From contig NZ_AUHX01000006.1 in assembly GCF_000423405.1 (NCBI RefSeq), forward strand, positions 1 through 64,000: DNA of 64,000 bases, written 5' to 3'. Position 1 is the stretch's first letter, and every line of letters starts with the position of its first letter. Positions 12,868 to 47,223 of the stretch are shown piece by piece. The notes beneath the pieces are model-generated. The model did not search any database and had not been told where the DNA came from. It saw only the letters and a list, made by a program, of their open reading frames with translations. Source of the stretch: Mesonia mobilis DSM 19841 (lineage in GTDB: Bacteria; Bacteroidota; Bacteroidia; Flavobacteriales; Flavobacteriaceae). The translations under genes were made by a program, and so were the position numbers.

Positions 12868-12973
12868 GGGCAATCCTTTCGCTTTAACAAGCTCAGGTCG
12901 GGCTATTCACTGCAATCTTTTTATTTTTAAAAAGCAAAAAATAAAAAAGGATTTTCGTTGCTATCCCTTTTGC
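12868..12973 (+). repeat. Structured 3'-end repeat element, copy A (behind recJ)
   Basis: Degenerate copy of the element seen at 14898-14991, 38932-39030 and 47121-47223. It keeps the internal block TCGGGCTATTC, the A/T-rich central hairpin starting ATCTTTTT and ending AAAAAAGGAT (12915-12952), and the CTATCCCT block near the 3' end. The outer pair is GCAA (12870-12873) with TTGC (12970-12973), where the other copies have GCGTT with AACGC, that is a compensatory change. It is oriented with its 5' end toward the preceding stop codon. Confidence 0.75.
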
Positions 12974-13008
12974 AATTTTTATCACTAAGTTAGCATCAAT
13001 TAGAAAAT

Positions 13009-13410
13009 ATGAAATCAGTATTACTTTTTATATACATCGCATCTATTTTGGGATTAGTTAATTCAAATATCAATTGTTCTGAATTTAAAGAAGGGAGATA
13101 TATTTATTTGAACAAGGAAGAAAATCAATTTGACCAGACTCATATTGCAATAAGGACAACTAACAAACAAATCTATATTGATTCGGAAAAAGGAGACACT
13201 CTGATTTACGATTTAAACTGGATTTCAAACTGTGAATATGAATTGATATACACTAAATCTAATTTGAAAAAAGAAGGATTAGTAAAAATTGGTGACACAT
13301 TTACGATTACTATGGTTCCAATTGACAAAACGTCTTATAATTATACATCTAAAATAATGAAGAATGGTTTAGAGAGAGAATTTAAAGGAACGATGAAAAA
13401 AATAGAATAA
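13009..13410 (+). CDS. Small exported protein, unknown, possibly transferred
   Basis: A 133-residue protein with a Sec signal peptide (MKSVLLFIYIASILGLVNS) and a mature part rich in Lys, Asn, Tyr and Thr that looks all-beta, including two cysteines (Cys23 and the SNCEYE motif). Its sequence is AT-richer than the flanking housekeeping genes. It lies between repeat copy A and a 270-nt non-coding stretch with a cassette-like tail, so it may be an inserted gene. No family is recognised. It resembles in size the small DNA-topoisomerase-like or lipocalin-like secreted orphans found scattered in Flavobacteriia, without a firm match. Confidence 0.65.
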   Translation: MKSVLLFIYIASILGLVNSNINCSEFKEGRYIYLNKEENQFDQTHIAIRTTNKQIYIDSEKGDTLIYDLNWISNCEYELIYTKSNLKKEGLVKIGDTFTITMVPIDKTSYNYTSKIMKNGLEREFKGTMKKIE

Positions 13411-13625
13411 AATGATGCTAACACTTTATATAGCAAGTAGGACGTTCAGTGGTTTATGAAAATTCAGTGCTATTTACAAACATCACCAAATCGTTGATGT
13501 GGCTTTTAAGAATGAATGAGTTAAAACAAAATACAACGCTTTGGCTCAGTGCAAACTTAAAAGGTTATTTCTTTTAAATGCTCTACTCGCCGTATACTAA
13601 ACAATAAAATCAAATAAAGAAAACA
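13411..13625. other. Non-coding tail behind the small exported gene
   Basis: About 215 nt follow the stop codon without a credible ORF. They begin CTAACACTTTATATAGCAAG and contain ACAACGCTTTGGC near 13534-13546, segments of a type I associate with the tails of single-gene cassettes in Flavobacteriia. No internal symmetry strong enough to define ends was found. Confidence 0.35.
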
Positions 13626-13629
13626 TTTG

Positions 13630-13646
13630 TTTAGAACAATTCTAAA
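13630..13646. promoter_or_regulatory. Fur-like operator
   Basis: TTTAGAACAATTCTAAA is a perfect 7-base inverted repeat around a 3-base centre. It lies between a TTTG (13626-13629) and the -7 box TATCTTTG (13655-13662), the usual site for repression. An almost identical palindrome lies upstream of the AraC-type gene at 61168-61184. Fur assignment is inference from symmetry and haem/iron context. Confidence 0.55.
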
Positions 13647-13654
13647 TAATTAAT

Positions 13655-13662
13655 TATCTTTG
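13655..13662 (+). promoter_or_regulatory. -7 promoter box of the Cys-rich small gene
   Basis: TATCTTTG exactly matches TAnnTTTG, 17 nt before the ATG at 13680. The -33 candidate TTTG ends 25 nt upstream, slightly longer than the usual spacer. Confidence 0.6.
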
Positions 13663-13679
13663 ATAAGATATTTAGGCTT

Positions 13680-14018
13680 ATGAAAGATATTGAGATCATT
13701 TATAAAAACGAATTCGGAATTTCATTTCAATGGAAAAGCAAGCGAGAAAAAGTTCAGGTGGTTTTTAAAGACACCGGGTTTTTACTGAGTTTAGAAGAGA
13801 TTAAAATCTTTCAGAAAAATGTACTTCAAGTAGAAGCAGAGCAATGCTGCCAAAACTGTGAATATTCTCGATCTTGTAGAAGTTTATTATTAAAAACGCC
13901 TTCGCAAAAAATAGATCTAGCCGTGAGCTTAGATGAACTCGATCAAATTAATGAATTACTGGGCGCTACGATTTTTAAGTTAGAAACAAAAGCTTATGTA
14001 GCCCACAGCTTTAATTAA
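13680..14018 (+). CDS. Conserved Cys-cluster protein, probably iron-regulated
   Basis: This 112-residue cytosolic protein has no signal peptide. The N-terminal half looks like a small beta domain (ISFQWKSKREKVQVVFKD), then a compact cysteine cluster Cys56, Cys57, Cys60 and Cys66 (CCQNCEYSRSC), and a C-terminal helix (LDELDQINELLG). The cysteine spacing suggests metal or Fe-S binding. The Fur-like operator overlapping its promoter suggests derepression under iron limitation. I recall proteins of this type as conserved but uncharacterised in Flavobacteriia; the function is unknown. Confidence 0.75.
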   Translation: MKDIEIIYKNEFGISFQWKSKREKVQVVFKDTGFLLSLEEIKIFQKNVLQVEAEQCCQNCEYSRSCRSLLLKTPSQKIDLAVSLDELDQINELLGATIFKLETKAYVAHSFN

Positions 14019-14088
14019 TAAAAATTTATCTTTTAAATAAGATTTTTAGTGTAGTATGAGGTTCTGAATCATGTCTAGAGTGAAAAAA

Positions 14089-14847
14089 TTATTTTTTATA
14101 CTCTTTTAATTCAAATTTTTCTCCGTCGAAAACTCCGTAGGTGTAAAAATTAATCCAATCGCCGAGATTAAAATAGGTTGAATTTTTACCGACTTTAATT
14201 TCCATCGGTAAATGGCGATGTCCAAAAATAAAGTAATCGTAATGTTTACTTTCTAGTTTTCGTTTGGCGTATTGCGCTAACCATTCATTTTCTTCGCCTA
14301 AAAACTTGGCATCCTCATCACCGGAAATGAGTTTGTTTTTTACCGAAAGATGTTGCGCTAACGGCACGCCAAGATCGGGATGCAACCATCGGTATAACCA
14401 TTTAGAAAACGGATTGGTAAACACTTTTTTCATGCGTTTATAACCCTTATCGCCTGGACCTAAACCGTCACCGTGACCTACCAAAAAAGTTTTATGGTTA
14501 AAGCTGAATTCTTTTGGGCGATGATACACAGGAATGCCTAGTTCTTGCTCAAAATAATCATCCATCCATAAATCGTGATTACCCACAAAGAAATAAATAG
14601 GAATGCCGCTGTCTTTAATTTCAGCAAGTTTTCCTAAAACACGTACAAAACCTTTAGGAACTACGTGTTTGTACTCAAACCAAAAATCGAATAGATCTCC
14701 CAATAAAAAGATCGCTGCAGCATCGTGTTTTACCTCGTCTAACCAAGCTACAAATTTAGCTTCTCGTGGCTTGCTAAATTGTTGGTTGGGCGCACCTAAG
14801 TGGTTATCGCTCGAGAAGTAAACTTTTTTTCCTGTAGGGAGTTGCAT
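14089..14847 (-). CDS. lpxH: UDP-2,3-diacylglucosamine diphosphatase (LpxH-type)
   Basis: LpxH hydrolyses UDP-2,3-diacylglucosamine to lipid X in lipid A synthesis at the inner-membrane surface. The 252-residue calcineurin-like phosphoesterase shows the metal motifs in order: SSDNHLG (Asp14, His16), GDLFD (50-54), GNHD (89-92), VGHGD and FGHRHLP. Length and motif order fit LpxH better than a generic phosphodiesterase, and no other lpxH is in view. It is followed by convergent spacing to the Cys-cluster gene and has its own start 144 nt from the queD element. Confidence 0.88.
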   Translation of the reverse strand: MQLPTGKKVYFSSDNHLGAPNQQFSKPREAKFVAWLDEVKHDAAAIFLLGDLFDFWFEYKHVVPKGFVRVLGKLAEIKDSGIPIYFFVGNHDLWMDDYFEQELGIPVYHRPKEFSFNHKTFLVGHGDGLGPGDKGYKRMKKVFTNPFSKWLYRWLHPDLGVPLAQHLSVKNKLISGDEDAKFLGEENEWLAQYAKRKLESKHYDYFIFGHRHLPMEIKVGKNSTYFNLGDWINFYTYGVFDGEKFELKEYKK

Positions 14848-14897
14848 AGGTTATTTTGTGATTGCTAAATATACTTATTTCTGTAAAAGTTGTTTTT

Positions 14898-14991
14898 GCG
14901 TTAGGGATTGAATGGCATGTTTGAGCTCTTTTAATTTTTTTTGAAAATTAAAAAGCGAGTAATGAAAGCCCGACCCGATAGGGAAACGCCC
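14898..14991 (-). repeat. Structured 3'-end repeat element, copy B (behind queD)
   Basis: Read on the minus strand it starts GGGCGTTTCCCTATCGGGTC and ends ATCCCTAACGC. The outer stem is GCGTT (14985-14989) with AACGC (14898-14902). The central hairpin CTTTTTAATTTT pairs with AAATTAAAAGAG. The last base of the queD stop codon TAG is the first G of the element, so the AATTAG end of the repeat provides the termination codon. Confidence 0.85.
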
Positions 14992-15440
14992 TAATTATCG
15001 CTAGCAAACCATTCGGCAAAACTGGTTTCGGTCTCTTGAAGTCTTAATGAAAACAGTTGAATATTTTCCGGCAAACGGCTTTTTATTTTTTCTGCAAAAT
15101 CGATCACCATCATTTCTGAAGTTGGTTGATAATCGACCAAGATCACGTTATGGTCACGTTTCTGAAGTTCTTTTGCCAACTCAACGTGCGGCGTATTTTT
15201 ATTAAAAACGGTGGCGTGATCAAATTTATCGACAATTTCTTCTTTTACGATTTTTTTTAGGTCGCCAAAATCGATCACCATCCCAAATTTAACGTGATCG
15301 GCATCGTCGATAGGTTGCCCGATTACCGTTACGTTAAGCTTGTAACTGTGGCCGTGAACGTTTTTGCATTTTCCGTCGTAACCGTAAAGGGCGTGACCGG
15401 TTTCAAAATTAAATTGCTTAGTGATGCGAATGTTGCTCAT
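14991..15440 (-). CDS. queD: 6-carboxytetrahydropterin synthase QueD family
   Basis: QueD converts dihydroneopterin triphosphate to 6-carboxy-5,6,7,8-tetrahydropterin for queuosine and related deazapurines. The 149-residue protein has the zinc ligands His16 (ETGHAL), His29 and His31 (NVHGHSY), the catalytic Cys25 (GKCKNVHG), the motif VIDFGDLK, and a late Glu in LRLQETETS. A 6-pyruvoyl-tetrahydropterin synthase is the alternative, but the C-x3-H-G-H form and bacterial context favour QueD. Its ATG overlaps the TGA of an upstream 32-residue membrane peptide. Its stop codon is fused to repeat element copy B. Confidence 0.9.
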   Translation of the reverse strand: MSNIRITKQFNFETGHALYGYDGKCKNVHGHSYKLNVTVIGQPIDDADHVKFGMVIDFGDLKKIVKEEIVDKFDHATVFNKNTPHVELAKELQKRDHNVILVDYQPTSEMMVIDFAEKIKSRLPENIQLFSLRLQETETSFAEWFASDN

Positions 15441-15535
15441 CGGTTTCTAAATTTGTTAACTAACACGACTACGATTAACACGACGGCCAGTAAAAGAAAA
15501 AGTCCGTTACCGCTAAAAAACTGTAAAATATCCAC
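15437..15535 (-). CDS. 32-residue single-pass membrane peptide coupled to queD
   Basis: A short frame starting at GTG (15533-15535) encodes MDILQFFSGNG, then a strongly hydrophobic stretch LFLLLAVVLIVVVLV (12-26), and a basic tail NKFRNR. An in-frame stop lies four codons upstream, which fixes the start region. The TGA stop overlaps the queD ATG (ATGA), a usual sign of translational coupling. The N-out/C-in orientation follows from the basic tail. It is too short for routine gene calling. The function is unknown, and it could also act as a leader peptide that controls queD translation. Confidence 0.55.
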   Translation of the reverse strand: MDILQFFSGNGLFLLLAVVLIVVVLVNKFRNR

Positions 15536-15601
15536 TTCGATTTATTTTTAAATAGGCTACAAAGTTAAGCAATTAAGTTTCTAACGCGAGAATGAAATTT
15601 T

Positions 15602-15634
15602 TTGTATTTCGAATGGATTTACAATTTATATTTG
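15602..15634 (+). promoter_or_regulatory. Promoter of the 2OG-Fe(II) oxygenase gene
   Basis: TTG (15602-15604), a 22-nt spacer and TATATTTG (15627-15634) match the Bacteroidota promoter consensus, 19 nt before the ATG. Confidence 0.75.
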
Positions 15635-15653
15635 TCGCGCATTTTTATGAATT

Positions 15654-16298
15654 ATGAAAGAACTTTTTGATCAAGTAGAATTTGTTGAAAATCCTCTATA
15701 TGAAAGTATTATCGAGGATTTGTTACAACGTAAATACAGCGTTATCGATAACTTTTATTCTGCGGAAGAAGTTGAAGTTTTAAGAAACGGACTGCTGGCA
15801 AAATACGAAGAAGATCAATTTAAAAAATCTGCCATTGGTAATAAAACCAACGAATTGGTTGAAAAAGAAATTCGGGGCGATTTTATTTTATGGCTGAATG
15901 AAGCGGAAGCAGGAACTGCGGAAAACGTATTTTTTAACCGTGTAAATAACCTAGTTGATTACTTGAATAAAACTTGCTTTATGGGCATTTTGCATAAAGA
16001 ATTTCATTACGCAGTTTACCCGGAAGGTACTTTTTATAAACGACATTTAGATACATTTCAGAACGATGGCAGGAGAAAACTTTCTGTGGTTTGTTATTTA
16101 AATGATGAAACTTGGTTAGAAGAAAACGGCGGCGAATTAACGATTTATGTGGATGAAAACGGAGAAGAAAAGGCGGTCGACCTTTATCCGTTTCCCGGGC
16201 GTGTGGTGATTTTTGAAAGTCAAGAACTAGAACACGAAGTACAACGTGTGAAGCATTCTAAACGATTTAGTATAACCGGTTGGTTGAAAACTAGATAA
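15654..16298 (+). CDS. 2-oxoglutarate/Fe(II)-dependent oxygenase (prolyl-4-hydroxylase-like)
   Basis: The 214-residue protein has the double-stranded beta-helix iron site His131-x-Asp133 (KRHLDTF), the distal His194 (ELEHEV) and the 2-oxoglutarate-binding Arg204 (KRFSITGW). Between these lies the typical LSVVCYLN strand and the NGGELTIY motif of the P4H/SM-20 group. It is cytosolic and probably hydroxylates a protein or small-molecule substrate; the substrate cannot be read from the sequence. It has its own promoter and is followed by the nested inverted repeat, so it is monocistronic. Confidence 0.88.
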   Translation: MKELFDQVEFVENPLYESIIEDLLQRKYSVIDNFYSAEEVEVLRNGLLAKYEEDQFKKSAIGNKTNELVEKEIRGDFILWLNEAEAGTAENVFFNRVNNLVDYLNKTCFMGILHKEFHYAVYPEGTFYKRHLDTFQNDGRRKLSVVCYLNDETWLEENGGELTIYVDENGEEKAVDLYPFPGRVVIFESQELEHEVQRVKHSKRFSITGWLKTR

Positions 16299-16300
16299 TT

Positions 16301-16441
16301 AAAAAGAGGCTGTCTAAAAAAATTAAAAAAGCGTCATTCTGAATTTATTTCAGAATCTCATATTACTGAAAGACAAATCAGTATGAGAACCTGAATCAAG
16401 TTCAGGTTGACAAATGTAGACTTTTTAGACAACCTCTTTTT
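16301..16441. repeat. 141-bp nested inverted repeat, MITE-like
   Basis: The outer arms AAAAAGAGGCTGTCTAAAAA (16301-16320) and its near-complement (16422-16441) enclose a second palindromic element. The latter has hairpin ATTCTGAA/TTCAGAAT, a middle stem TCTCAT/ATGAGA and hairpin CCTGAA/TTCAGG, with the same design as 1-88. It lies between convergent genes, so it may also act as a bidirectional terminator. No ORF is inside. Confidence 0.8.
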
Positions 16442-16454
16442 GTTGATGTTCTTT

Positions 16455-17918
16455 TTACAGATTATTGATGTAATTTCCGTAGAGATCTTGAAACTGAATT
16501 CCTTTTGAGAATCGGTGTTTGCTAAGTTTGTTGTAAGCCGTTAATCCCCAGAGCAAAAATTCAGCTAAAAAATAGCGGTCTTCTTCGCTAACTTCCGGTT
16601 GGTATTTTGAGATCAGATCTTGAAGCGGTTTTATGTTTTTTAGCGTTTCTTGATATTCTTTTTCGCTAAGATCATCGGGTAATTCTACTCCGCTCGATTC
16701 AAAAAACCACTGCGTAACTTCATCATAAGGATTGGCTTCATTTTGCTTTTCAAGCTTTTCTATCTTCGGAAATAATTCTGGGAAAATCGTTTTAATTGAA
16801 TTCTCTATGAGGTGTTGAGCCACAAACGCAGCACCTTCTTGTTCACCTTCATAAACTAATTCAACCTTACCCGTAATAGCAGGAATTACGCCCATAAAAT
16901 CACCCAATCGAAGCGTAGTTTCTTGATCTCCATTTTTTAAAGCGCGACGCTCTGCGGTACTCAATAAATTCTGAAAAGCAGTAATACTCATTCGAGCGCT
17001 AATCCCGCTTTTTTCATCTACATATTCGCTTTCTCGTGCTTCAAAACTAATTTGCTCTAAAATTTCTCGCGCTAGATCGGGTACTTTTACGTGTTCTTTT
17101 TGGTTGCTCTCTAAATTAGCTTCCTGCTCGGTAATGGTTTTTGCAATTTCTACAGTTTTTGGATAATGCGTTAAAATTTGCGAACCAATTCTATCTTTCA
17201 ACGGAGTCACAATGCTACCACGGTTGGTATAATCTTCAGGATTTGCCGTAAAAATAAATTGAAGATCTAGTGGTATTCTTAATTTAAAACCTCGAATTTG
17301 AATATCGCCTTCTTGCAAAATATTGAATAATGCTACCTGAATTCTCGCTTGTAAATCGGGCAACTCATTAATCACAAAAATACAACGGTTTGCTCGCGGA
17401 ATCATCCCAAAATGAATCACGCGATCATCGGCATAACTCAGTTTTAAGTTTGCCGCTTTTATCGGGTCTACATCACCAATTAAATCGGCTACGGTCACAT
17501 CGGGTGTCGCCAGCTTTTCTGAAAAACGCTCGTCTCGATGTAACCAAGAAATAGGGGTTTCATCTCCCTTTTCTTTTAAAGTTTCTTGAGCATATCTTGA
17601 AATAGGATGAAAAGGATCATCATTAATTTCTGAACCTTCCACCACGGGAATATATTCATCTAAAAGCTTCACCATTAACCGGGCAAGACGTGTTTTTGCT
17701 TGTCCGCGTAAACCGAGTAAATTAATGTTATGTTTTGAAAGAATTGCACGTTCTAGTTCCGGAATTACGGTGTCTTCATAACCGTGAACGCCTTCAAAAA
17801 CCGTTTCGTTATTTTTTATTTTTTCAATTAAATTTTGGCGTAATTCTTCTTTGATGCTTTTACTTTCGTAACCTGCCTTTTTAAGTTCGCCAAAAGTTTT
17901 TATTTCTGTTAAGTTCAT
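16455..17918 (-). CDS. MoxR/Mg-chelatase-like AAA+ ATPase
   Basis: A 487-residue AAA+ protein related to the BchI/ChlI and MoxR groups. The Walker A loop is GLRGQAKT (69-76), Walker B is IFVINELPDL, sensor 1 lies in FIFTANPEDY, and the C-terminal part is a helical lid extension. An open frame extends 33 codons upstream to 18017, but that stretch is the translation of the CCCTCCC hairpin repeat, so the ATG at 17918 is preferred. Next upstream on this strand, after the GIY-YIG gene, is a VWA-domain protein. AAA+/VWA pairs usually work together as a chaperone for metal insertion or complex assembly. The client is unknown. It is not a chlorophyll enzyme in this setting. Confidence 0.88.
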   Translation of the reverse strand: MNLTEIKTFGELKKAGYESKSIKEELRQNLIEKIKNNETVFEGVHGYEDTVIPELERAILSKHNINLLGLRGQAKTRLARLMVKLLDEYIPVVEGSEINDDPFHPISRYAQETLKEKGDETPISWLHRDERFSEKLATPDVTVADLIGDVDPIKAANLKLSYADDRVIHFGMIPRANRCIFVINELPDLQARIQVALFNILQEGDIQIRGFKLRIPLDLQFIFTANPEDYTNRGSIVTPLKDRIGSQILTHYPKTVEIAKTITEQEANLESNQKEHVKVPDLAREILEQISFEARESEYVDEKSGISARMSITAFQNLLSTAERRALKNGDQETTLRLGDFMGVIPAITGKVELVYEGEQEGAAFVAQHLIENSIKTIFPELFPKIEKLEKQNEANPYDEVTQWFFESSGVELPDDLSEKEYQETLKNIKPLQDLISKYQPEVSEEDRYFLAEFLLWGLTAYNKLSKHRFSKGIQFQDLYGNYINNL

Positions 17919-17935
17919 AGCTTTTTTTATTTTAC

Positions 17936-18011
17936 ATCCCTCCCCAGCCCTCCCTTCGAAGGGAGGGAACTTTTTACTTCCCTTTTTTGAAGGGGGAACG
18001 AGGGGGATGTT
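17936..18011. repeat. CCCTCCC palindromic repeat
   Basis: It contains the perfect 20-nt palindrome CCCTCCCTTCGAAGGGAGGG (17948-17967), followed by a C/G-rich imperfect mirror ending GAGGGGGATG. A related short hairpin (CCCCTCT..AGAGGGG) lies at 54950-54967. It forms part of the leader of the AAA+ gene. Confidence 0.65.
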
Positions 18012-18079
18012 ATACACTTTTCTTAATTATTTTACGTTTATAATTTTTTCGATTTCATTTAAGTTAACATTTGATTTTA

Positions 18080-18104
18080 TGTCAGGTCGAGCGGAGTCGA
18101 GACC
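18080..18104 (+). repeat. Palindromic repeat, left flank of GIY-YIG gene
   Basis: TGTCAGGTCGAGCGGAGTCG and the following AGACC form a hairpin (GGTCGA/TCGAGACC). The right flank at 18446-18470 is the same repeat in opposite orientation. Confidence 0.75.
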
Positions 18105-18110
18105 TATTTA

Positions 18111-18422
18111 TTATTCTTTATATTTTGAATGACTTTCATTGTTGCATTCAGATAAAATTTTCAAGGTGTCAAAATCACCATCAATTAATGCTCTTTTTTT
18201 CTTTGCACTCCATTTTTTTATTTTCTTTTCAAATAAAATAGCTTGCTTTATATCATTAAAATCTTGTTGAAACACTAATTGTAATGGGCGTCTTTTGAAA
18301 GTAAAACATGTTGGGTTTAGACCTTCATTGTGTTCTTCTAATCTTCTTGAAATATTGTTTGTAACACCGACGTAATACAATTCGTCTGAACATTTAAGTA
18401 TATAAACATAATAGCTTTTCAT
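18111..18422 (-). CDS. GIY-YIG nuclease family protein
   Basis: A 103-residue single-domain nuclease of the UvrC-N/URI type. The motif pair is YYVYILKC (4-11) and ELYYVGVTNNISRRLEEH (15-31), which gives the two Tyr-containing strands and the catalytic Arg. The metal-binding Glu is in AILFEKKIKKWSAKKK (about 62-76). No DNA-recognition domain is attached. The gene splits the AAA+/VWA pair and is bracketed by an inverted pair of 25-bp palindromes, so it appears as an inserted unit. The biological role of this family (repair, mobility or RNA processing) is not established. Confidence 0.92.
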   Translation of the reverse strand: MKSYYVYILKCSDELYYVGVTNNISRRLEEHNEGLNPTCFTFKRRPLQLVFQQDFNDIKQAILFEKKIKKWSAKKKRALIDGDFDTLKILSECNNESHSKYKE

Positions 18423-18445
18423 CTATGTAAGTGACTTTAAAAAAA

Positions 18446-18470
18446 CCTCTCGACTCCGCTCGAGGTGACA
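18446..18470 (-). repeat. Palindromic repeat, right flank of GIY-YIG gene
   Basis: Minus-strand reading is TGTCACCTCGAGCGGAGTCG plus AGAGG, nearly the same as the left flank (18080-18104), in inverted orientation, with internal stem CTCGA/TCGAG. Confidence 0.75.
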
Positions 18471-18517
18471 TCCTTGATTCTTTAGATAGGTCAACTGATT
18501 AAATTTAAAAGATGCTA

Positions 18518-19639: not shown

Positions 19640-19703
19640 AGCTTAAAATTACGACAATTTTGAAGCAATTTTAAATAGACAGATGTTAAACTGAAATTAA
19701 TAA

Positions 19704-20858: not shown

Positions 20859-21054
20859 GTTTATTAACATAAGTTGTTGAAAAATATAACGAGTAATGTT
20901 TGGTAAATGTAACAAAAAAAGCCTTAAATAACTGTTTACTATTAGTGTATAAAGGTTAATGATTTTTAAAAAGTAACAAATGTGAAAATTGTAAAGTAAC
21001 AATTACTGCTTTAAAAACATAACAGAGGAAAAGAAATTCTCTTCGGTAAAATGT

Positions 21055-22383: not shown

Positions 22384-22397
22384 AGAAAATGGCGTTT

Positions 22398-25253: not shown

Positions 25254-25838
25254 ATGAAGTGGTTTTTAATTGTATTCTTTTGTGTAATTGGGTTTGGTAT
25301 TCAGGCGCAAGAATCACAACAAGCAAGTGTAGAAAAAGAAGTTTATGGAGTGCAAGTTGGTCTTGGCTTTTGGGCTCATTACGAACTAGGTTTATCGAAT
25401 ACCATCGCATTGAGAGGAGAACTTGGTTTCAATCCATATATTACTGAGCCGGGATTTATAATTAATGAAAAAACTCATTTCGGTTTTATGCCAATTGTTA
25501 GAGTAGAACCTCGTTGGTATTTCAACTTAAAAAAACGCTTAAGAGAAGATAGAAATATTAGTAAAAACTCCGGTAACTTTCTAAGTCTTAATGTTGCTTT
25601 TACTCCAAACTCATTCACTATTTTTGATAATAGTGATTACGATGTAGAAACAATAAATCAATTAAGTGTGATACCGACTTGGGGAATGCGAAGAACTTAT
25701 TGGGAGCATTTTACATTAGAAACCGGTGCCGGTTTAGGATATGTTCGAAGTTTTCAAAGTGATGATTATTATTTAAATCCTGATAAAGAACATCTAGTCG
25801 GGTTAAAAATATATTTTAGATTGGGATATACTTTCTAA
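25254..25838 (+). CDS. Predicted outer-membrane beta-barrel protein
   Basis: A 194-residue protein with a signal peptide (MKWFLIVFFCVIGFGIQA, cleavage before QESQ). The remaining sequence alternates polar and hydrophobic residues in about eight strands (VGLGFWAHYELGL, IALRGELGFNPY, and final LVGLKIYFRLGYTF) and ends in an aromatic residue, as outer-membrane barrels do. It resembles small OmpW/OmpA-type porin-like proteins; the function is unknown. It has its own promoter and terminator, so it is monocistronic. Confidence 0.8.
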   Translation: MKWFLIVFFCVIGFGIQAQESQQASVEKEVYGVQVGLGFWAHYELGLSNTIALRGELGFNPYITEPGFIINEKTHFGFMPIVRVEPRWYFNLKKRLREDRNISKNSGNFLSLNVAFTPNSFTIFDNSDYDVETINQLSVIPTWGMRRTYWEHFTLETGAGLGYVRSFQSDDYYLNPDKEHLVGLKIYFRLGYTF

Positions 25839-25840
25839 AC

Positions 25841-25872
25841 AAAAAAGTCAGCTTTTAAAAGCTGACTTTTTT
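25841..25872. terminator. Bidirectional terminator
   Basis: AAAAAAGTCAGCTTTT and AAAAGCTGACTTTTTT form a perfect hairpin between the convergent barrel-protein gene and trpS, with A- and T-runs on both sides. Confidence 0.9.
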
Positions 25873-25877
25873 GTTTT

Positions 25878-26849
25878 CTAGTAACCTAATTTTGTTCGAA
25901 CTCGGTCTAAAACTTCATTCGATACTTTTCTGGCTTTTTCAGCCCCTTTTTCTAAAGCAGCATCGACCTCGTGAAGATTATTCATATAATAATGATAAGC
26001 TTCTCTTTCTTTTGCATATTTTTCAACTAAAAGTTCATATAAAGCTTGTTTCGCGTGACCGTAACCGTAATTTCCGCCTAAGTAGTTTTTACGCATCTCT
26101 GCGGTTTGTGCTTCGGTAGCGATAATTTTATAAAGGTTGAAAACATTACAAGTATCTGGATCTTTAGGTTCTTCAAGCGGAGTGCTATCGGTTTGAATGC
26201 CCATCACTTGTTTTCTTAATTTTTTATCGGGTAAAAATAAATTGATATAGTTATCACGAGATTTACTCATTTTCTCTCCGTCGGTTCCCGGGATGTATTT
26301 TGAATTTTCTTCAATTTTAGCTTCCGGCAAAACAAAAACATCTTCACCCATTTGTGCATGAAAACGAGCAGCTACATCACGCGTCATTTCGATATGTTGT
26401 AATTGATCTTTACCTACCGGAACAAATTCTGCATCGTAAGCCAAAATATCTGCAGCCATTAACATTGGGTACGTAAAAAGCCCCGAGTTTACATCGGCTA
26501 AACGATCTGCTTTATCTTTAAATGAGTGTGCAAGCGTTAATCGCTGGTAAGGGAAAAAGCAACTTAAATACCAAGAAAGTTCGGTTACTTGTGGTACATC
26601 ACTTTGTCTGTAAAAAACTGTTTTCTCGATGTCTAAACCAAAAGCCAGCCAAGTTGCCGCCACAGAGTAGGTGTTTTCTCTTAAAGTGGGAGCGTCTTTT
26701 ATTTGCGTTAGCGTGTGCAAATTTGCAATAAATAAAAAAGATTCGTTATTAGAATCGTTTGCCATGTTGATGGCAGGAATAATTGCTCCTAGTAAGTTTC
26801 CTAAATGTGGAGTTCCTGTACTTTGTACTCCGGTTAGTATTCTTGACAT
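25878..26849 (-). CDS. trpS: Tryptophanyl-tRNA synthetase
   Basis: TrpS charges tRNA-Trp. The 323-residue class I synthetase has TGVQSTGTPHLGN (6-18) with the HIGH-like PHLGN, the amino-acid pocket motif around YQRLTLAHSFKDKA, PMLMAADILAY, and the KMSKS loop GEKMSKSRDN. Length is normal for bacterial TrpS. The start is supported by a -7 box at 26867-26874. It is divergent from plsC. Confidence 0.97.
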   Translation of the reverse strand: MSRILTGVQSTGTPHLGNLLGAIIPAINMANDSNNESFLFIANLHTLTQIKDAPTLRENTYSVAATWLAFGLDIEKTVFYRQSDVPQVTELSWYLSCFFPYQRLTLAHSFKDKADRLADVNSGLFTYPMLMAADILAYDAEFVPVGKDQLQHIEMTRDVAARFHAQMGEDVFVLPEAKIEENSKYIPGTDGEKMSKSRDNYINLFLPDKKLRKQVMGIQTDSTPLEEPKDPDTCNVFNLYKIIATEAQTAEMRKNYLGGNYGYGHAKQALYELLVEKYAKEREAYHYYMNNLHEVDAALEKGAEKARKVSNEVLDRVRTKLGY

Positions 26850-38195: not shown

Positions 38196-38222
38196 CAGTT
38201 ATCAGTTAAAAGTAAGCAGTAA
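38196..38222. repeat. Short AGTTATCAGTT-type repeat, empty copy
   Basis: GCAGTTATCAGTTAAAAGTA lies directly after the scoA stop codon. It resembles the repeats that flank the four-helix-bundle gene at 52073-52104 and 52478-52509, but no gene is present here. Confidence 0.5.
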
Positions 38223-38268
38223 TTTTTCTGTGTAACAAATAACACATCATCAAATCAACACATTAATT

Positions 38269-38922
38269 ATGTTAGATAAAAACGGAATTGCACAACGCAT
38301 CGCCAAAGAAGTAAAAGACGGCTTTTACGTAAATCTCGGTATCGGGATTCCCACTTTGGTGGCCAACTTTGTGCGCGACGATATAGAAGTAGAATTTCAG
38401 AGTGAAAACGGAATTTTAGGAATGGGACCTTTCCCTTTCGAAGGCGAAGAAGATGCAGATCTCATTAACGCCGGTAAACAAACCATTACCGCATTACCAG
38501 GCGCAAGTTTCTTCGATTCTGCCACCAGTTTCGGGATGATTCGCGGTCAACACGTAGATCTTACCATTTTGGGTGCCATGGAAGTTGCCGAAAACGGAGA
38601 TATCGCCAATTGGAAGATCCCCGGGAAAATGGTAAAAGGTATGGGCGGCGCGATGGATTTGGTGGCTTCCGCAGAAAATATCATTGTCGCGATGATGCAT
38701 ACCAACAAAGCCGGAGATTCCAAATTATTAAAAAAATGCACCTTGCCCTTAACCGGTGTAGGCTGTGTAACCAAGATCGTTACCAATCTTGCCGTGATCG
38801 AGGTAACGCAAGACGGTTTTAAACTTTTAGAACGCGCTCCGGGCGTAAGTGTCGAAGAGATCGAAAAAGCAACCGAAGGTAAATTGATCATCGAAGGAGA
38901 AATCCCAGAAATGGTTTTATAA
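38269..38922 (+). CDS. scoB: 3-oxoacid CoA-transferase subunit B
   Basis: The 217-residue partner of ScoA. The catalytic glutamate that forms the enzyme-CoA thioester is Glu46 in [20 protein letters not shown] (24-34) and [11 protein letters not shown] are the other family blocks. It completes the heterotetrameric transferase. Its ATG is 73 nt behind scoA, so the pair is one operon. Repeat element copy C starts 10 nt after its stop codon. Confidence 0.93.
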
Positions 38923-38931
38923 AATAGTGAT

Positions 38932-39030
38932 GGCGTTTCCCGATTGAAAAAATCGGGACCGCGCTATCCGTTAAATCTTTTTTTGCCACTTATCAAAGCA
39001 AAAAAAGGATACCACTGCTATCGCTAACGC
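38932..39030 (+). repeat. Structured 3'-end repeat element, copy C (behind scoB)
   Basis: It starts GGCGTTTCCCGATTG and ends ATCGCTAACGC. The outer stem is GCGTT (38933-38937) with AACGC (39026-39030). A CCCGAT/ATCGGG hairpin and the central stem TTTTTTTGC/GCAAAAAAA are clear. The orientation is the same, relative to the upstream gene, as in the other three copies. Confidence 0.85.
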
Positions 39031-39374
39031 AGTCCCAAACCGATAAATATTTCAGAAATCATTCTCGAGTAAAAAACCTCATTTTGAACCGAGTCAAAGT
39101 GTTATTTCAGCATCAGATCAAACTCTTCAAAATTTTAAGACTCCTGGGAATTTTTTTCTAACATCGTAAGTATGATTTAAACAGTAAAACATGTGTGGTT
39201 TACTAAAACTTCAGGAATGTGCAGTTCAATCCTTCGTCATGCTGAATTTATTTCAGCATCACATCACCCACTTTTCAGCATTAAAATAGAAGCGTAGATT
39301 GAGAATTTAATTTATCGAGTTTTTTTGGTGGAAACAACTTTTTCTAATGCTAATTTCTTCAGTAACAACAAAAC
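39031..39374. other. Gene-free stretch with degenerate repeats
   Basis: About 340 nt between repeat copy C and the sterol-desaturase-like gene. It holds the palindrome ATGCTGAA..TTCAGCAT (39239-39259, family of 1-88) and a degenerate half copy near 39085-39120 (CATTTTGAACCGAG, TTTCAGCATCAGATC). No ORF of credible composition or RNA gene was seen. Confidence 0.5.
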
Positions 39375-40241: not shown

Positions 40242-40334
40242 AAGTAATCATTATAACAAAATTAAATCACATAGAAAATTTATGAGGTATTAAATTTTAA
40301 TTATTAAATTGGTAAAATCTATAAAGATCAAGAT

Positions 40335-40814: not shown

Positions 40815-40822
40815 TAAGATAT

Positions 40823-42508
40823 TTAAATCCCTTTCGGGATGGCATCAATTAATTTTTGTGTGTATTCTTTTTCCGGATTGGCATAAATTTGATCTGCATC
40901 GCCTTGTTCAACAATTTTACCTTGATTCATCACCAATAATTGATCGGCCATATATTTTACGACCGCCAAATCGTGCGAAATAAAAATATAGGTAAAGCCA
41001 AACTTGTCTTTTAACTCGTTCAATAAATTCAGCACTTGCGCTTGTACAGAAATATCTAGCGCAGAAACCGACTCGTCACAAACAATTAATTTAGGCTCAA
41101 CGGCAATAGTTCTCGCAATCCCGATACGTTGACGTTGTCCGCCGCTAAACTCGTGCGGATATCGATTAAAATGACTCTCATTTAAACCAACGCGATGTAA
41201 TAATTCTAAGGTTTTTTGTTTTCGCTCCTTGTTGTTTTTATAAAGATGATGCACTTCCATCGGTTCCATAATCGCTTTTCCCACGGGAATACGCGGATTT
41301 AATGACGAAAATGGATCTTGAAAAATTAATTGTATTTCTTTCCGAAGTTTTCGCAATGCTGTTTTTGATATTTTCGTAATGTCATTTCCTCGATATAAAA
41401 CTTTTCCGGCAGTAGCTTTATCGAGTTGAAGAATTACATTTCCTAAAGTCGATTTTCCGCAGCCCGATTCGCCTACCAAGCCTAAAGTTTCTCCTTCATA
41501 AATTTTAAAACTCACATCGTTCACCGCTTTTACTGATGTTTTCGGTTGAAACAATCCTGGATTGCTCACAAATTCTTTTTCAACATTTACCACTTCCAGT
41601 AAAGGAGATTGCGCATAAATTTCTTGGTGACGCTTTTCTCGCTCGCTTTTGGTTTCAACTACATTTGAAATGGTATTTTCTAAGAAATTTTTGACGGTAG
41701 GTAGTTTTTTTAATCGCTCGGTAGTCGAAGGTTTGGAAGCCAGAAGTGCTTTGGTATAGGTTTCTTTAGGTTGAAGAAATAATTCTTTTGCTGAATTTTG
41801 TTCCACTATCTTTCCTTGATACATCACGACCACCCGATCAGATATTTCTGAAACCAATGCCAAATCGTGTGAAATAAAAATGATACTCATTTCTGTTTCC
41901 TGCTGAAGCGATTTCAGCAATAATAAGATCTCTTTTTGCACTGTTACATCGAGCGCGGTGGTAGGTTCATCGGCAATTAAAATTTTAGGTTTACAAGCAA
42001 TCGCCATTGCGATCATTACCCGCTGTTTTTGTCCGCCGCTAATTTGGTGCGGATAAACATCATAAATGCTTTCTGGTCTTGGGAGCTTTACTTTCTCAAA
42101 CAATCGAAGCGTTTCTGCTATGGCTTCTTTTTTAGAAAGCGTGGTGTGTTCTAGTAAAATTTCGGTCACTTGTGGTCCGCATTTCATCGAAGGGTTGAGC
42201 GAGCTCATCGGTTCTTGAAAGATCATCGAGATTTCTTTACCTCTAATTTTTCGAAGTTGTTTGGTAGAAAGTTTAGAAAGATCTTCTCCTTTATATAAAA
42301 TCTCTCCTTCCGTAATTTTTGCTGAAGAAGGTAATAATCTTAAAACCGCCAGCGAGGTAAGTGACTTTCCGGAACCGGATTCCCCAACAATGCCTAGAAT
42401 CTCATTTTTATAAAGTTGAAAATCAATTTGTTGAAGTGTTTCTCTAAAGCCGTTATCGGTTTGAAAGCCGATCGATAATTGATGAATATGAAGAAGAGGA
42501 TGACTCAT
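40823..42508 (-). CDS. Peptide ABC transporter ATPase, two nucleotide-binding domains fused
   Basis: A 561-residue protein with two complete ABC ATPase modules. The first has Walker A GESGSGKS (about 40-47), signature SGGQKQR and Walker [13 protein letters not shown]; the second has [15 protein letters not shown] and [11 protein letters not shown]. Each ends with the OppD/OppF C-terminal extension. It corresponds to a DppD-DppF fusion that powers oligopeptide or dipeptide uptake. Permease and binding-protein genes are not in the window, so partners are encoded elsewhere. A strong inverted repeat lies upstream at 42549-42583. Confidence 0.92.
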
Positions 42509-42548
42509 TAAATGTTAAAATTTTAGGGCGTTCATCGAAAATATAGCT

Positions 42549-42583
42549 TTTAATCGATAAAAAGTTTGCGTTTATCGATTAAA
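42549..42583. promoter_or_regulatory. 13-bp inverted repeat, candidate operator
   Basis: TTTAATCGATAAA (42549-42561) and TTTATCGATTAAA (42571-42583) form a perfect inverted repeat around 9 nt. A third half-site-like copy, TTAAATCGATAAA, lies at 42618-42630. The position between divergent genes suits an operator; the regulator is unknown. Confidence 0.55.
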
Positions 42584-42953
42584 TTTAATTATTTAGATGA
42601 AAATTGATAAAAACAGATTAAATCGATAAAAAATTACAATATATGTTATCAACTTTTAAAAGTGTTTACGACTTCATTAAAAATGAAGAGCGTAATGTAA
42701 AACAACCGCCAAAGCTAGTAAGGCTAAAATTAGCCAACTTTTTTCAGAATACCTTCAATTACTATTTTTATTCCTGTAAAACGAGCTTAACCCATTCTTG
42801 TAATTATTTCTTATCCACGCTCTCGTTTTTCAACTTTACTACATTTAGACATCGATTTTATTGGCAAGCTTAGCTAAACATAGATCGTAATCTTTCTTAT
42901 TGACTTATTTAGAGTCTTCAAAACAAACAATTTTAATCTTTAAATTTTTTGCA
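42584..42953. other. Long leader region of the subtilase gene
   Basis: About 370 nt with no firm gene. It contains a third ATCGATAAA half-site, and an open frame at 42643-42873 whose first ~35 codons are plausible (MLSTFKSVYDFIKNEERN) but whose rest is Phe/Ser/Tyr-rich nonsense. A hairpin GGCTA/TAGCC followed by six T lies at 42719-42743, like an internal terminator or attenuator. Confidence 0.4.
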
Positions 42954-45900
42954 ATGGTTCACAACTATTTCAGCAAAAAGAGAATATTGCTATGTTCTTT
43001 TTTGCTAACGGCTGGTGTTGCTTTTTCGCAAACCGAAGCGCAGAAACAAGAAATTACAAGTCGGTACAATCAACAGGAGTTAGATGCACTTCAAAAACGA
43101 TTGGTTACCAAAAATCAACATCAAAAACAAGAAATCAACAATTTAGCGACTCAACGTGGTTTGCAGAAAAGAGTGGTGTTAGCCGATGGTGGTGTTGCAG
43201 AACTGCAGTACATCGCAGATGATGGCAGTCCCATTTATTACCGAACCTTTAATGTAAACGCAGCAAAATCTACACGTGCCGATTATTTAAATTCTGGCGG
43301 AGGTCTAGGTTTAAATATAGACGGTCAAAATATGACGGCTTATGTTTGGGACGGTGGTCACGCTCGTGTTTCTCATCAAGAATATGATGGAGCAGGAGGT
43401 AGCAATCGAGTTTCTGTAGAAGATGCAGCCTCAGAAGGTGGTACTCAACTTAATTACCACGCAGCGCACGTTACGGGAACTATTGCCGCATCTGGTGTGC
43501 AAGCCAATGCAAAAGGAATGGCACCGCAATCTAGAGTTCGCGGTTATATGTGGAATAACGATATTGCTGAAGCTACATCGGCAGCAGCAAATGGAATGTT
43601 ACTTTCTAATCATAGTTACGGTTATCGTTCTGATATGGTTCCCGATTATTATTTTGGAGCTTACATTCAAGAATCTAGAGATTGGGACGAATTAATGTAC
43701 GATGCTCCATTTTATTTAATGGTTGTTGCTGCAGGAAATGACGGAAATAATAATAGTTATAACGGTTCTCCTTTAAACGGAAATTCTTCCTACGATAAAC
43801 TTACCGGGCATTCGACTTCTAAAAATAATTTGGTGGTTGCCAATGCACAAGATGCAAATATCGATTCGAACGGAAACTTAGTAAGCGTAAGTATAAACAG
43901 TTCAAGTAGTGAAGGGCCAACCGACGATCTGAGAATAAAACCAGACATTACCGGTAACGGGACATCGGTCACTTCTACCTACGATTCTAGTGATTCTGCT
44001 TACGGTACGATTACAGGAACATCAATGGCTTCTCCTAACGTGACAGGAACTTTATTACTGCTTCAACAGCATTACAATAATTTAAACGGAAGTTTTATGC
44101 GCGCGGCAACTTTAAAAGGTTTAGCCTTACATACGGCAGACGATGCAGGGCCTACTGGACCAGATGCTGTTTATGGTTGGGGACTTTTAAATGCAAAACG
44201 CGCGGCAGAAACGATTTCTGCGGAAGGGACTTCAGCAAAAATTGAAGAGTTAACCCTTAACAGCGGTCAGACTTACGAAATAACGGTAAATGCCGATGGA
44301 GTAAACGATTTGATCGCTTCCATTTCTTGGACAGACCTTCCTGGTACGGCAACCACACAAACTAATTCTTCAACAGCAAGATTAGTAAACGATTTGGATA
44401 TTCGAGTTACACAAAGCGGAAGCACATTTTACCCTTACCGATTAACTTCAATTACTTCTAACGGAACCGGTGATAATTCAGTAGATCCTTATGAAAGAGT
44501 GAATGTTGCTAATGCATCAGGAAGTTATACGATTACAATTTCTCATAAAGGTTCTTTAAGTTCTGGAAGTCAAAATTACAGTTTAATTTTAACAGGGATC
44601 ACTGAAGAAGCGGTGGTTTGTGAAGCTACTACACCTGCGAATGTTAGTGTTTCTGGCGTAGGGTCGACTTCAGCAATTGTGAGTTATGATGCTGTAACCG
44701 GAGCTACCTACGAGTTACGTTACCGAGAAAGCGGAACTTCTTCGTGGACTGTGCAAAGTGCTTCAGGAACTTCGGCGACGCTTACCGGTTTAACTTCAGA
44801 AACAAGTTATGAAGTTCAAGTTAGAAGCGTGTGTAATGATGGAAGTACTTCAAATTATTCTTCAACAGAAACATTTACCACAAGCGAAATTCAACTTAAT
44901 TATTGTGGATCACAAGGTAATAGTGTAAATGACGAATATATTAGCCGAGTTCAGTTAGGAAGTATTGACAATAGTTCTGGCGCCGGAAATGGATATTCAG
45001 ACTTTACCAATTTAAGTACTAGTTTGAGCAAGAATGTTTCTTCAACGATAAGTATTACGCCAACTTGGACGGGAACACAGTATAATGAAGCTTATTCTGT
45101 TTGGATCGATTACAACCAAGATGGCGATTTTAATGATACGGGAGAGCAGGTATTTACACGTTCAGCAACTCAAAATTCTCCGGTAAGCGGTAGTTTTACC
45201 GTACCGAGTTCTGCTTTAGAAGGGGCGACGAGAATGCGAGTTTCGATGAAATATAACGGTATACCGACAGCTTGCGAAAGCTTTTCTTATGGTGAAGTAG
45301 AAGATTATACGGTGACGATCTCGGGCGGTACTGCAGATACTGAAGCGCCAAGTGCTCCGACAAATCTTTCAGCAAATAATGTAACCGAAACAACGGTAGA
45401 TCTTTCTTGGAGTGCTTCTACAGATAATGTAGGAGTAACCGGTTACGATGTTTATCAAGGTTCTAGTTTATTAGGTTCTGTTACCGGAACTACCACTCAA
45501 ATCACCGGTTTAACCGCTAACACATCTTACAGTTTTTATGTAGAAGCTAAAGATGCTGAAGGAAATATTTCAGCAGCATCAAATACGGTAAGCGTGACTA
45601 CTTCTGGAGCTCCGGCAGTAAATTATTGCGCGAGCCAAGGAAATAACTCTTCTTATGAGTGGATAGATCTTGTAGCCTTAAACGGAATGAGCAATGCTAC
45701 CGGAGACGATGGTGGTTATGCAGATTATACGAACCAAGTTACAAGTTTACCTTATGGGTCGAACACCGTAAATATTAGTGCAGGTTTTTCGGGTTCTAGT
45801 TATACTGAATATTGGAAAATCTGGATAGACTATAACAAAAATGGAATGTTTGAATCATCAGAATTAATGGTGAGTGGCTCGAGCAGCAGTAGCGCCACTT

Positions 45901-46337
45901 TAAGTGGAACTTTTACGGTACCAACTTCAGCACTTGCAGGAACTACAAGAATGCGAGTTTCGATGAAATATAATGCTGCACAAACAGCCTGCGAAAGTTT
46001 TTCTTATGGTGAAGTGGAAGATTATACTGTAAATATTGGTCAGTCTGTTAATGCAATAGCAACAACAACTCAAGAAGGACAAGAATTAGGTAATGAAACA
46101 ATCGCTTCTTTTGAAGCAAAATTATACCCAAATCCGGTTTCTGGGAATATTTTAAATGTGCGTATGAACGATGCAAGAGAAACGGCCTATCAAATATTTG
46201 ATATGATGGGTAAAAAAGTACTACAAGGAAATTTATCGAGTAGTACAATTCAAGTGAATGGCTTATCAAGCGGTGTTTACTTGCTAAAACTAAATGACGG
46301 TCAAAAAGAGATCGTGAAGAAGTTTATTAAGCAGTAA
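42954..46337 (+). CDS. Secreted S8 subtilisin-like protease, T9SS type A substrate
   Basis: A 1127-residue exported protease. The signal peptide ends AFSQ (about residue 26). The S8 catalytic triad is Asp133 (VWDGG), His172 (AAHVTGT) and Ser357 (GTSMASP). A jelly-roll P-like domain (about 430-540), a fibronectin III module, a GEVED domain, a second fibronectin III and a second GEVED follow. The C-terminus is a T9SS type A sorting domain (YPNPVSGN, VYLLKLNDGQKEIVKKFIKQ). The start was set at ATG 42954, because the upstream 18 residues from TTG 42900 would bury the signal peptide. The two GEVED modules share an almost identical stretch in DNA and protein. It should degrade extracellular protein. 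Confidence 0.93.
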   Translation: MVHNYFSKKRILLCSFLLTAGVAFSQTEAQKQEITSRYNQQELDALQKRLVTKNQHQKQEINNLATQRGLQKRVVLADGGVAELQYIADDGSPIYYRTFNVNAAKSTRADYLNSGGGLGLNIDGQNMTAYVWDGGHARVSHQEYDGAGGSNRVSVEDAASEGGTQLNYHAAHVTGTIAASGVQANAKGMAPQSRVRGYMWNNDIAEATSAAANGMLLSNHSYGYRSDMVPDYYFGAYIQESRDWDELMYDAPFYLMVVAAGNDGNNNSYNGSPLNGNSSYDKLTGHSTSKNNLVVANAQDANIDSNGNLVSVSINSSSSEGPTDDLRIKPDITGNGTSVTSTYDSSDSAYGTITGTSMASPNVTGTLLLLQQHYNNLNGSFMRAATLKGLALHTADDAGPTGPDAVYGWGLLNAKRAAETISAEGTSAKIEELTLNSGQTYEITVNADGVNDLIASISWTDLPGTATTQTNSSTARLVNDLDIRVTQSGSTFYPYRLTSITSNGTGDNSVDPYERVNVANASGSYTITISHKGSLSSGSQNYSLILTGITEEAVVCEATTPANVSVSGVGSTSAIVSYDAVTGATYELRYRESGTSSWTVQSASGTSATLTGLTSETSYEVQVRSVCNDGSTSNYSSTETFTTSEIQLNYCGSQGNSVNDEYISRVQLGSIDNSSGAGNGYSDFTNLSTSLSKNVSSTISITPTWTGTQYNEAYSVWIDYNQDGDFNDTGEQVFTRSATQNSPVSGSFTVPSSALEGATRMRVSMKYNGIPTACESFSYGEVEDYTVTISGGTADTEAPSAPTNLSANNVTETTVDLSWSASTDNVGVTGYDVYQGSSLLGSVTGTTTQITGLTANTSYSFYVEAKDAEGNISAASNTVSVTTSGAPAVNYCASQGNNSSYEWIDLVALNGMSNATGDDGGYADYTNQVTSLPYGSNTVNISAGFSGSSYTEYWKIWIDYNKNGMFESSELMVSGSSSSSATLSGTFTVPTSALAGTTRMRVSMKYNAAQTACESFSYGEVEDYTVNIGQSVNAIATTTQEGQELGNETIASFEAKLYPNPVSGNILNVRMNDARETAYQIFDMMGKKVLQGNLSSSTIQVNGLSSGVYLLKLNDGQKEIVKKFIKQ

Positions 46338-46361
46338 GCATTATTTTTTTTCATTGGGGTT

Positions 46362-46394
46362 GAAGTCCGGGAGAGATCTCGGGCTTCTTTTTTT
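46362..46394 (+). terminator. Terminator of the subtilase gene
   Basis: GAAGTCCGGGAGA pairs with TCTCGGGCTTC, followed by seven T. It can also serve the convergent exonuclease gene. Confidence 0.8.
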
Positions 46395-47106
46395 AAACCG
46401 AAACAATCTCATTTTCGGTTAATAATTTTTCTTGTCTAAATTTTAAAATTATTTGAGCAATGGCAACTACATCTCTTTCGCAATAAGAGATGATTCGGTT
46501 AAGATTATTGTCGTGATAAAAAACATCACGAACCTGCGAGCCGTCGATATCTTCTTTTGGTGAAGGAATGCCTAAAATATGAGTGAGAAGTTTTAAAGAA
46601 GTAAAGTTTTTATAATCACCAAACTTCCATAATTCTAAGGTGTCTAGATGTGGAACTTCCCAAGGTTTTTTGCCGAAAAGATTTAGTTTGCTAGGTAATT
46701 CTATACCGTGAATGAGCATTCGGCGAGCAATAAAAGGAAAGTCAAATTCTTTACCGTTATGTGCGCAAAGTAAATGTTTAGGTTTATTAAAATATTCGTT
46801 TAGGAGTTTTTTAAATTCGGTTAATAAGGTTGATTCATTGCCTTGAAAAGATGTTGTTCTAAAGGTTCTCTCATCATTTTTAAAGGTGAAATAGCCTACC
46901 GAAATGCACACGATCTTACCAAATTCTGCCCAAATACCAGCACGATCGTAAAACTCTGCAGCCGTAAAATCTTCTTTTCGTTGGTATTTAGATTTATCTT
47001 CCCAAAGTAATTTTTTCTCTTCGCTTAATTCTTGAAACGATTCAAACTCCGGTACGGTCTCGATATCTAGAAAAAGAATGTTTTCTAATTTTAGTTTTTT
47101 TAGCAT
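46393..47106 (-). CDS. DNA polymerase B-like 3'-5' exonuclease
   Basis: A 237-residue DEDDy-type exonuclease of the stand-alone PolB-exo group. The metal-binding motifs are Exo I FLDIETVPE (about 12-20), Exo II AHNGKEFDFPF, and Exo III with SYCERDVVA. The frame upstream of ATG 47106 is the translation of repeat element copy D, so the first ATG after it is preferred. It may act in repair or RNA processing; no partner polymerase is nearby. Confidence 0.88.
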   Translation of the reverse strand: MLKKLKLENILFLDIETVPEFESFQELSEEKKLLWEDKSKYQRKEDFTAAEFYDRAGIWAEFGKIVCISVGYFTFKNDERTFRTTSFQGNESTLLTEFKKLLNEYFNKPKHLLCAHNGKEFDFPFIARRMLIHGIELPSKLNLFGKKPWEVPHLDTLELWKFGDYKNFTSLKLLTHILGIPSPKEDIDGSQVRDVFYHDNNLNRIISYCERDVVAIAQIILKFRQEKLLTENEIVSV

Positions 47107-47120
47107 CACACAGTTTTTTT

Positions 47121-47223
47121 GCGTTAGGGATGGCAGTGGCATCCTTTTTTGTTGTGCTTCGACAAGCTCAGCATGACAACAAAAAAGATATAACGAACAG
47201 CCCGACCCGATAGGGGAACGCCC
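47121..47223 (-). repeat. Structured 3'-end repeat element, copy D (behind a serine hydrolase)
   Basis: Minus-strand reading starts GGGCGTTCCCCTATCGGGTC and ends CATCCCTAACGC. The outer stem is GCGTT (47217-47221) with AACGC (47121-47125). The central stem TTTTTTGTTG/CAACAAAAAA has a TGAGCTTGTCGAAG-type repeat inserted in its loop (47157-47176). As at copy B, the stop codon TAG of the upstream gene ends in the first G of the element. Confidence 0.85.

Follow-up and report, generated by a model that had tools for sequence, protein, structure and literature searches.

What are the four similar structured elements that stand behind the 3' ends of genes in a 64,000-nt stretch of the Mesonia mobilis DSM 19841 genome (contig NZ_AUHX01000006.1, positions 1 to 64,000; hereafter the window), and what might keep them there? 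An earlier note on this DNA had placed them at 12868-12973, 14898-14991, 38932-39030 and 47121-47223, and all four are present, each matching an extended covariance model at E ≤3.1e-9. They are copies of Flavo-1 (Rfam RF01705), a family with no assigned function, seen here as a variant that carries an extra hairpin and a frame longer than catalogued, and for which we propose a candidate role as a transcript boundary in Mesonia. The earlier note knew of no published description; the element is nevertheless catalogued in Rfam and has a table row in Weinberg et al. 2010 (PMC2864571). A review counts it among the most abundant small RNAs, both in the section devoted to these and in the accompanying table, and gives no function for it (PMC9029176), and searches of the open literature by family name, accession and topic turned up no stated function in the portions of text that they returned.

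Without modelled flanks the elements span about 12870-12973 (copy 1, minus strand in the Rfam sense, which is used throughout), 14898-14989 (copy 2, plus), 38933-39030 (copy 3, minus) and 47121-47221 (copy 4, plus), in agreement with the earlier spans. The corresponding matches to the extended model, which was built from 22 copies of the same genome including copies 1 and 4 (loci L006 and L009) and not copies 2 and 3, lie at 12861-12975 (minus, 73 bits), 14896-14998 (plus, 55.6 bits), 38924-39032 (minus, 75.9 bits) and 47119-47230 (plus, 100.3 bits). Copies 1, 3 and 4 pass the RF01705 cut-off of 42 bits (61.1 bits at 12892-12978, 53.6 bits and 60.9 bits, respectively). Copy 2 reaches 25.7 bits with the Rfam model and is filed only as a related, divergent subtype, on the grounds that it matches the extended model without being among its rows and that two congeners have the more usual P2 type at the same orthologous site.

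In Mesonia the element can be drawn as a three-way junction of an outer stem (P1), a long stem with conserved purine internal loops (P2) and a short hairpin (P3) between P2 and P1. P2 is the Rfam part and was recovered unguided by a MAFFT alignment; P1 and P3 were added from folds of single copies. The closing stem P1 occurs as GCGTT/AACGC, GCGCA/TGCGC, GCGTG/CACGC, GCATA/TATGC and further variants, and the outer stems described before, GCGTT/AACGC in three window copies and GCAA/TTGC in the recJ copy, are found in both the sequences and the folds. P3, read from the sequence, ranges from CCCGATAGGG to stems of at least 7 pairs: the short form is at 14974-14983 (plus) in copy 2, where it falls outside the paired part of the Rfam match, and at 47206-47215 (plus) in copy 4, and a long form (cccgatt/aatcggg on the plus strand) is at 38939-38957 (minus) in copy 3. 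Among scoB orthologues P3 varies in sequence and length with its pairing retained. A second subtype, to which copy 2 and, as judged by eye, 8 of 11 other weak copies belong, combines a different P2 middle with the same P1, P3 and P2 base. The apical part of P2 in copy 4 (47144-47190, plus) contains a short repeat, CTTCGACAAGCTCAGCATGAC, common to several other copies. The P2 tip of several copies also harbours a further short repeat (GCTTCGACAAGCTCAGCATGAC or CTTCTCGACTCCGCTCGAAGTGAC), which gives the impression of other repeats nested at the tip.

In other lineages P1 is AGC/GCT with CC or TC behind it. AGC and GCT occur together in 38 of 42 such copies examined. The longer form, AGC and GCT[CT]C, occurs in 35 of the 42; among 168 control stretches 5 contain GCT[CT]C. 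Locus L195, which had no readable copy at the assumed place, was left out of these counts. A short linker replaces P3 in most of the other-lineage sequences inspected.

Of 68 copies, 62 have G-N-A on the 5' side of the first internal loop of P2, and 62 have it on the 3' side; the second loop varies more (GGC or GAA opposite ATA or GTA in most cases). Both RNA and DNA can form paired GNA as a stable purine motif. On the strand that the earlier note took to be folded these loops would read T-N-C, and in 33 of 41 copies the Rfam strand gives the better fold (mean difference 2.1 kcal/mol). Because both the conserved GNA/GNA loops and the better folds are on the Rfam strand, the folded strand is more likely Rfam's, the complement of the one first proposed.

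The claim of compensatory change is borne out. A set of 68 distinct copies that takes in those of relatives has pairing in 96.3% of 1480 cells (78.5% when shuffled) and two-sided changes in 245 cells (56.5 when shuffled; 0 of 500 shuffles as high), in an alignment that was fitted to the structure and is to that extent biased towards it. Two-sided changes occur in these copies at 5/5 P1 pairs and 3/3 P3 pairs. In an unfitted MAFFT alignment of 22 copies from the window's own genome, 11 of 14 predicted pairs show two-sided changes, all within P2, so that the conserved, covarying P2 stem of RF01705 is present here as well. Among scoB orthologues 25 of 264 cells are changed on both sides (5.1 when shuffled); further pair types among them are no more frequent than in shuffles (105 of 500 as high).

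Wobble pairs are scarce. G-U accounts for 25 of the 1480 cells (1.7%) and A-C for 18, of which 10 belong to one column that is unpaired in one subtype; without that column the counts are 25 and 8. In the other lineages, which the model fits less well, there are 14 G-U and 40 A-C cells; of the 40, 33 fall in three columns that are unpaired in those lineages. A control of 17 distinct tRNAs has G-U in 29 of 358 cells (8%) and no A-C (Fisher p 1e-8 against Flavo-1, with cells that are not independent). A DNA-level control, G-T plus A-C in a transposase-linked palindrome, yielded 20 loose matches that were mostly noise. Selection that acts on DNA folding, or on the folding of both transcripts, would produce such low wobble, a suggestive pattern at most, and arm sharing by gene conversion could lower it further.

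The own genome contains 40 matches to the Rfam model at E 0.01, 31 of them over the cut-off, and 60 to the extended model. Our context counts use 54 distinct copies, the 6 weakest of the 60 (E 2.9e-4 to 0.0096) being left out together with duplicate copies in overlapping loci and, from most counts, the weak Rfam-only match L069. Across 16 Mesonia genomes, the own genome included, there are 0 to 38 copies each at E 1e-4. Among 296 genomes drawn from the phylum, matches turned up in 43, with 36 genomes exceeding the cut-off and 24 of the 43 belonging to the window's family, in a scan with stricter filters that considered the best 15 matches per genome. Two copies are identical across 90 nt and have unlike flanks, and the flanks of 53 copies show no excess of target-site duplications. 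None of the 54 copies was called inside a gene.

Placement directly behind stop codons stands in the own genome, where 25 of 54 copies have a stop no more than 15 nt away and 3 have a start that close (gene calls by a simple custom gene caller). Between co-directional genes 21 of 28 copies are nearer the upstream stop (p 0.013). In the window, copy 1 is behind recJ (stop at 12860), copy 2 abuts the stop of a QueD-like gene (14991-15440, minus), copy 3 begins 10 nt behind scoB (38269-38922) and copy 4 abuts the stop of a hydrolase-like gene (47223-48365, minus). The gene names proposed before hold for recJ and scoB, which exceed their NCBIfam cut-offs; the QueD-like gene scores 88 bits (cut-off 89.25), and the hydrolase is typed weakly (best 82 bits, cut-off 800).

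Orientation is less strict than had been claimed. A 5' end facing the gene, on the strand of the earlier note, is seen at 19 stops within 15 nt and the reverse at 8 (p 0.05, two copies being counted in both classes), and co-directional genes flank 22 copies in that sense and 12 in Rfam's (p 0.12), which amounts to a lean and not to a rule; the remaining copies are between divergent (8) or convergent (7) genes or have unknown neighbours (5). The promoter motif TANNTTTG is found between element and downstream gene in 9 of 34 cases in sense and 5 of 34 in antisense (background 29 of 72). Nor did the proposed enrichment at gene ends extend from the own genome to three single-contig Flavobacterium-type genomes (genus g17), where 30 copies are distributed among divergent (10), co-directional (10 and 7 in the two senses), convergent (2) and unknown (1) contexts, and where start codons within 60 nt (21, as 14 + 7) outnumber stop codons (13, as 10 + 3). 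The gene-end rule is therefore not general. An orientation linked to replication was considered and rejected: the Rfam strand is the leading strand in 45 of 93 copies from three single-contig genomes (p 0.84), with replichores assigned by eye from GC skew in 20 stretches per genome. As a separate observation on orientation, model matches less than 2.1 kb apart (among the 54 stronger matches) are mutually inverted in 5 of 5 pairs, on contigs C1, C2, C3, C5 and C6 of the own genome, and 4 of these pairs point outward on the Rfam strand; the stretch 12861-14998 of the window is one of the five.

Gene ends that carry Flavo-1 in the own genome also have fewer ordinary terminators. Our simple finder called intrinsic-terminator-like sites at 9 of 44 ends with the element and 54 of 98 without (p 0.0001), and two stricter settings gave 8/44 vs 41/98 (p 0.007) and 4/44 vs 36/98 (p 0.0005). 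The comparison set comprised other gene ends with a gap of at least 80, a convergent element was counted once per gene, and the background stretches, chosen at round coordinates, contain one Flavo-1 match. At convergent ends alone the counts are 2/13 vs 19/26 (p 0.0015, 0.0018 and 0.006 at the three settings).

Copies are also retained at orthologous sites within the genus: behind scoB in 12 of 16 genomes, behind queD in 9 of 16, behind recJ in 4 of 16 and behind the hydrolase at 5 of 10 loci. All 30 have the same orientation and lie -4 to +8 nt from the stop, as measured from model ends; a hydrolase match in genome G005 (42% identity) was excluded from the comparison of orthologous ends. The second P2 pair is C-G in 11 of 12 scoB copies (G-C in genome G013), a pair found in only 9 of the 68 distinct copies overall, scoB copies included, and this shared uncommon pair points to common descent more than to recent insertion. 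At the queD site 7 copies belong to the second subtype, and 2 congeners have the usual P2 type with the same ends and gene-side flank; at another orthologous site the apical part is not the same in two sister genomes. The same site with a different P2 middle indicates that the middle is exchanged and the ends stay. Outside Mesonia the link between scoB and Flavo-1 was found at 0 of 78 loci; two further loci of the 80 examined did match, and both were taken as congeners (one of them Mesonia phycicola).

The reading that we tentatively prefer is that Flavo-1 in Mesonia is a dispersed hairpin, resembling the repetitive extragenic palindromic (REP) elements, that serves as a two-way transcript boundary. 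Copies would spread at the DNA level as REP-like repeats do, for which identical 90-nt copies with unlike flanks, copy numbers of 0 to 38 per genome and the swapped P2 middle of orthologues provide support, and a copy directly behind a stop would bound transcription units in both directions, either by stopping polymerase or by blocking 3' trimming. Such a boundary would explain the scarcer intrinsic terminators, the use of both orientations, the few wobble pairs and the genus-wide retention. It is also in keeping with what the consulted part of a Flavobacterium psychrophilum transcriptome study reports, namely Flavo-1 matches in sense or antisense alike, many of them outside transcribed regions (PMC9723704). 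A number of observations weigh against it. The conserved GNA loops favour one strand, a bias that a symmetric two-way device would not need. In 53 copies the 3' flank is A-rich whichever strand is read, with no conserved U-tract, and neither a mobilising enzyme nor a target duplication was found. For co-directional genes alone the terminator deficit has p values of 0.017, 0.25 and 0.025 at the three settings, in gene and terminator calls made with simple custom scripts; 9 of the 44 Flavo-1 ends bear an ordinary terminator before or after the element as well, and one terminator directly precedes a sister-genome copy. The g17 genomes show no significant deficit (5, 4 and 4 of 18 vs 132, 101 and 91 of 259; p 0.09 at the first setting), and copies there occur between divergent genes in 10 of 30 cases compared with 67 of 372 background gaps (p 0.05). 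Where orthologues of the four window genes were compared, the finder called terminators at 0 of 30 ends with the element and 2 of 27 without (p 0.22), so that terminator replacement at these ends is not supported. Finally, a 6S-Flavo RNA control from overlapping genomes has G-U in 44 of 330 cells (13%), 38 of the 44 in two near-fixed columns and elsewhere only 6 of 286 (2%), close to Flavo-1; because this control rests on two columns, the argument from low wobble is weakened and suggestive only.

A selfish or neutral REP-like DNA repeat with no host role, around which nearby terminators decayed or were displaced, is an alternative that we consider somewhat doubtful. It would persist just behind stops because insertions in genes and promoters are lost, and it accommodates the dispersed and patchy copies, both orientations, the absence of a replichore lean, the few wobble pairs and the many F. 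psychrophilum copies that, in the consulted part of that study, fall outside transcribed regions (PMC9723704). It fares less well with the scoB and queD copies, which were retained with compensatory changes while the sequence beyond the element diverged in distant congeners, and with the unpaired GNA loops, whose conservation on each side mere palindrome repair would not maintain. The orientation lean in the own genome, repeated at 17 vs 5 in four other lineages (groups flavo, g22, g30 and g18), is what one would expect of the strict reading of the earlier note, a 3' untranslated region element folded in the sense transcript. That lean is only 10 vs 7 in the three single-contig genomes, copy L190 being in both other-lineage sets, and the better folds and GNA loops on the other strand, together with the 12 of 34 co-directional copies that are reversed, make this reading improbable. 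Those same strand features would suit an antisense or cis-regulatory RNA that is made from the Rfam strand and runs into the 3' end of the neighbouring gene, a possibility just as slim given that no consistent strand is evident from the portion of the F. psychrophilum transcriptome study consulted (PMC9723704). A trans-acting small RNA, in line with the Rfam type of Flavo-1 (Gene; sRNA), seems the least probable of all, with dozens of variable copies per genome and, from the same portion of that study, no consistent transcription (PMC9723704).

A bolder version of the boundary reading, which we regard as unlikely, denies that Flavo-1 is a small RNA. Instead it would be a piece of mobile DNA able to fold as a single strand, with paired GNA loops; some enzyme still to be discovered would move it, and Mesonia would have recruited it as a two-way boundary free of a U-tract. 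Should Flavo-1 prove to be a mobile DNA hairpin or a boundary element, many annotations are misfiled, and it would offer a candidate new type of two-way transcript boundary, open to testing in flavobacteria that can be cultured.

Some other features of the window are recorded here in their own right. A dispersed 30-nt palindromic repeat (CGTCATTCTGAA...TTCAGAATCTCAT) has three copies, at 2-31, 16332-16361 and 39235-39264, and a 130-nt direct repeat, 81% identical, is found at 45184-45313 and 45901-46030 within a long open reading frame (42900-46337). Weak matches to other Rfam families (MIR8675, Thr_leader) we attribute either to chance or to an ordinary two-way terminator near 25838-25890. 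The sole Y1_Tnp match in the own genome is also in the window, at 55024-55575 (minus), and resembles a REP-associated transposase (NF047646, 49.6 bits, cut-off 80).

How, then, does Flavo-1 compare with known systems? REP elements of enterobacteria and pseudomonads, which form a system with REP-associated tyrosine transposases (RAYT), are short imperfect palindromes between genes, often behind stops and in both orientations. Flavo-1 is like them in every one of these respects, including dispersal without target-site duplication, and differs in that no REP-type transposase is tied to it. The palindromes that flank the Y1_Tnp gene are CCTRCAAGGT/ACCTTGCAGG-like and not Flavo-1, and at E 0.001 three copy-rich genomes (G004, G010 and G013, 34-37 copies) lack a Y1_Tnp match, while G007, with 0 copies, has one; mobilisation by a RAYT thus finds no support. 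With intrinsic terminators Flavo-1 shares its site behind stops, and terminator-like sites are scarcer where it stands; it differs in lacking a conserved U-tract and in having a branched fold, conserved internal loops and a sequence conserved across loci. With RF01705 as catalogued, the window copies share the same P2 stem and the same conserved letters. The Rfam model, by contrast, leaves the 5' arm of P1 unpaired and ends before its 3' arm, P3 is an additional hairpin here, and the subtype of copy 2 scores under the cut-off; and whereas Rfam types the family as a small RNA gene, in Mesonia it looks more like a dispersed boundary element.

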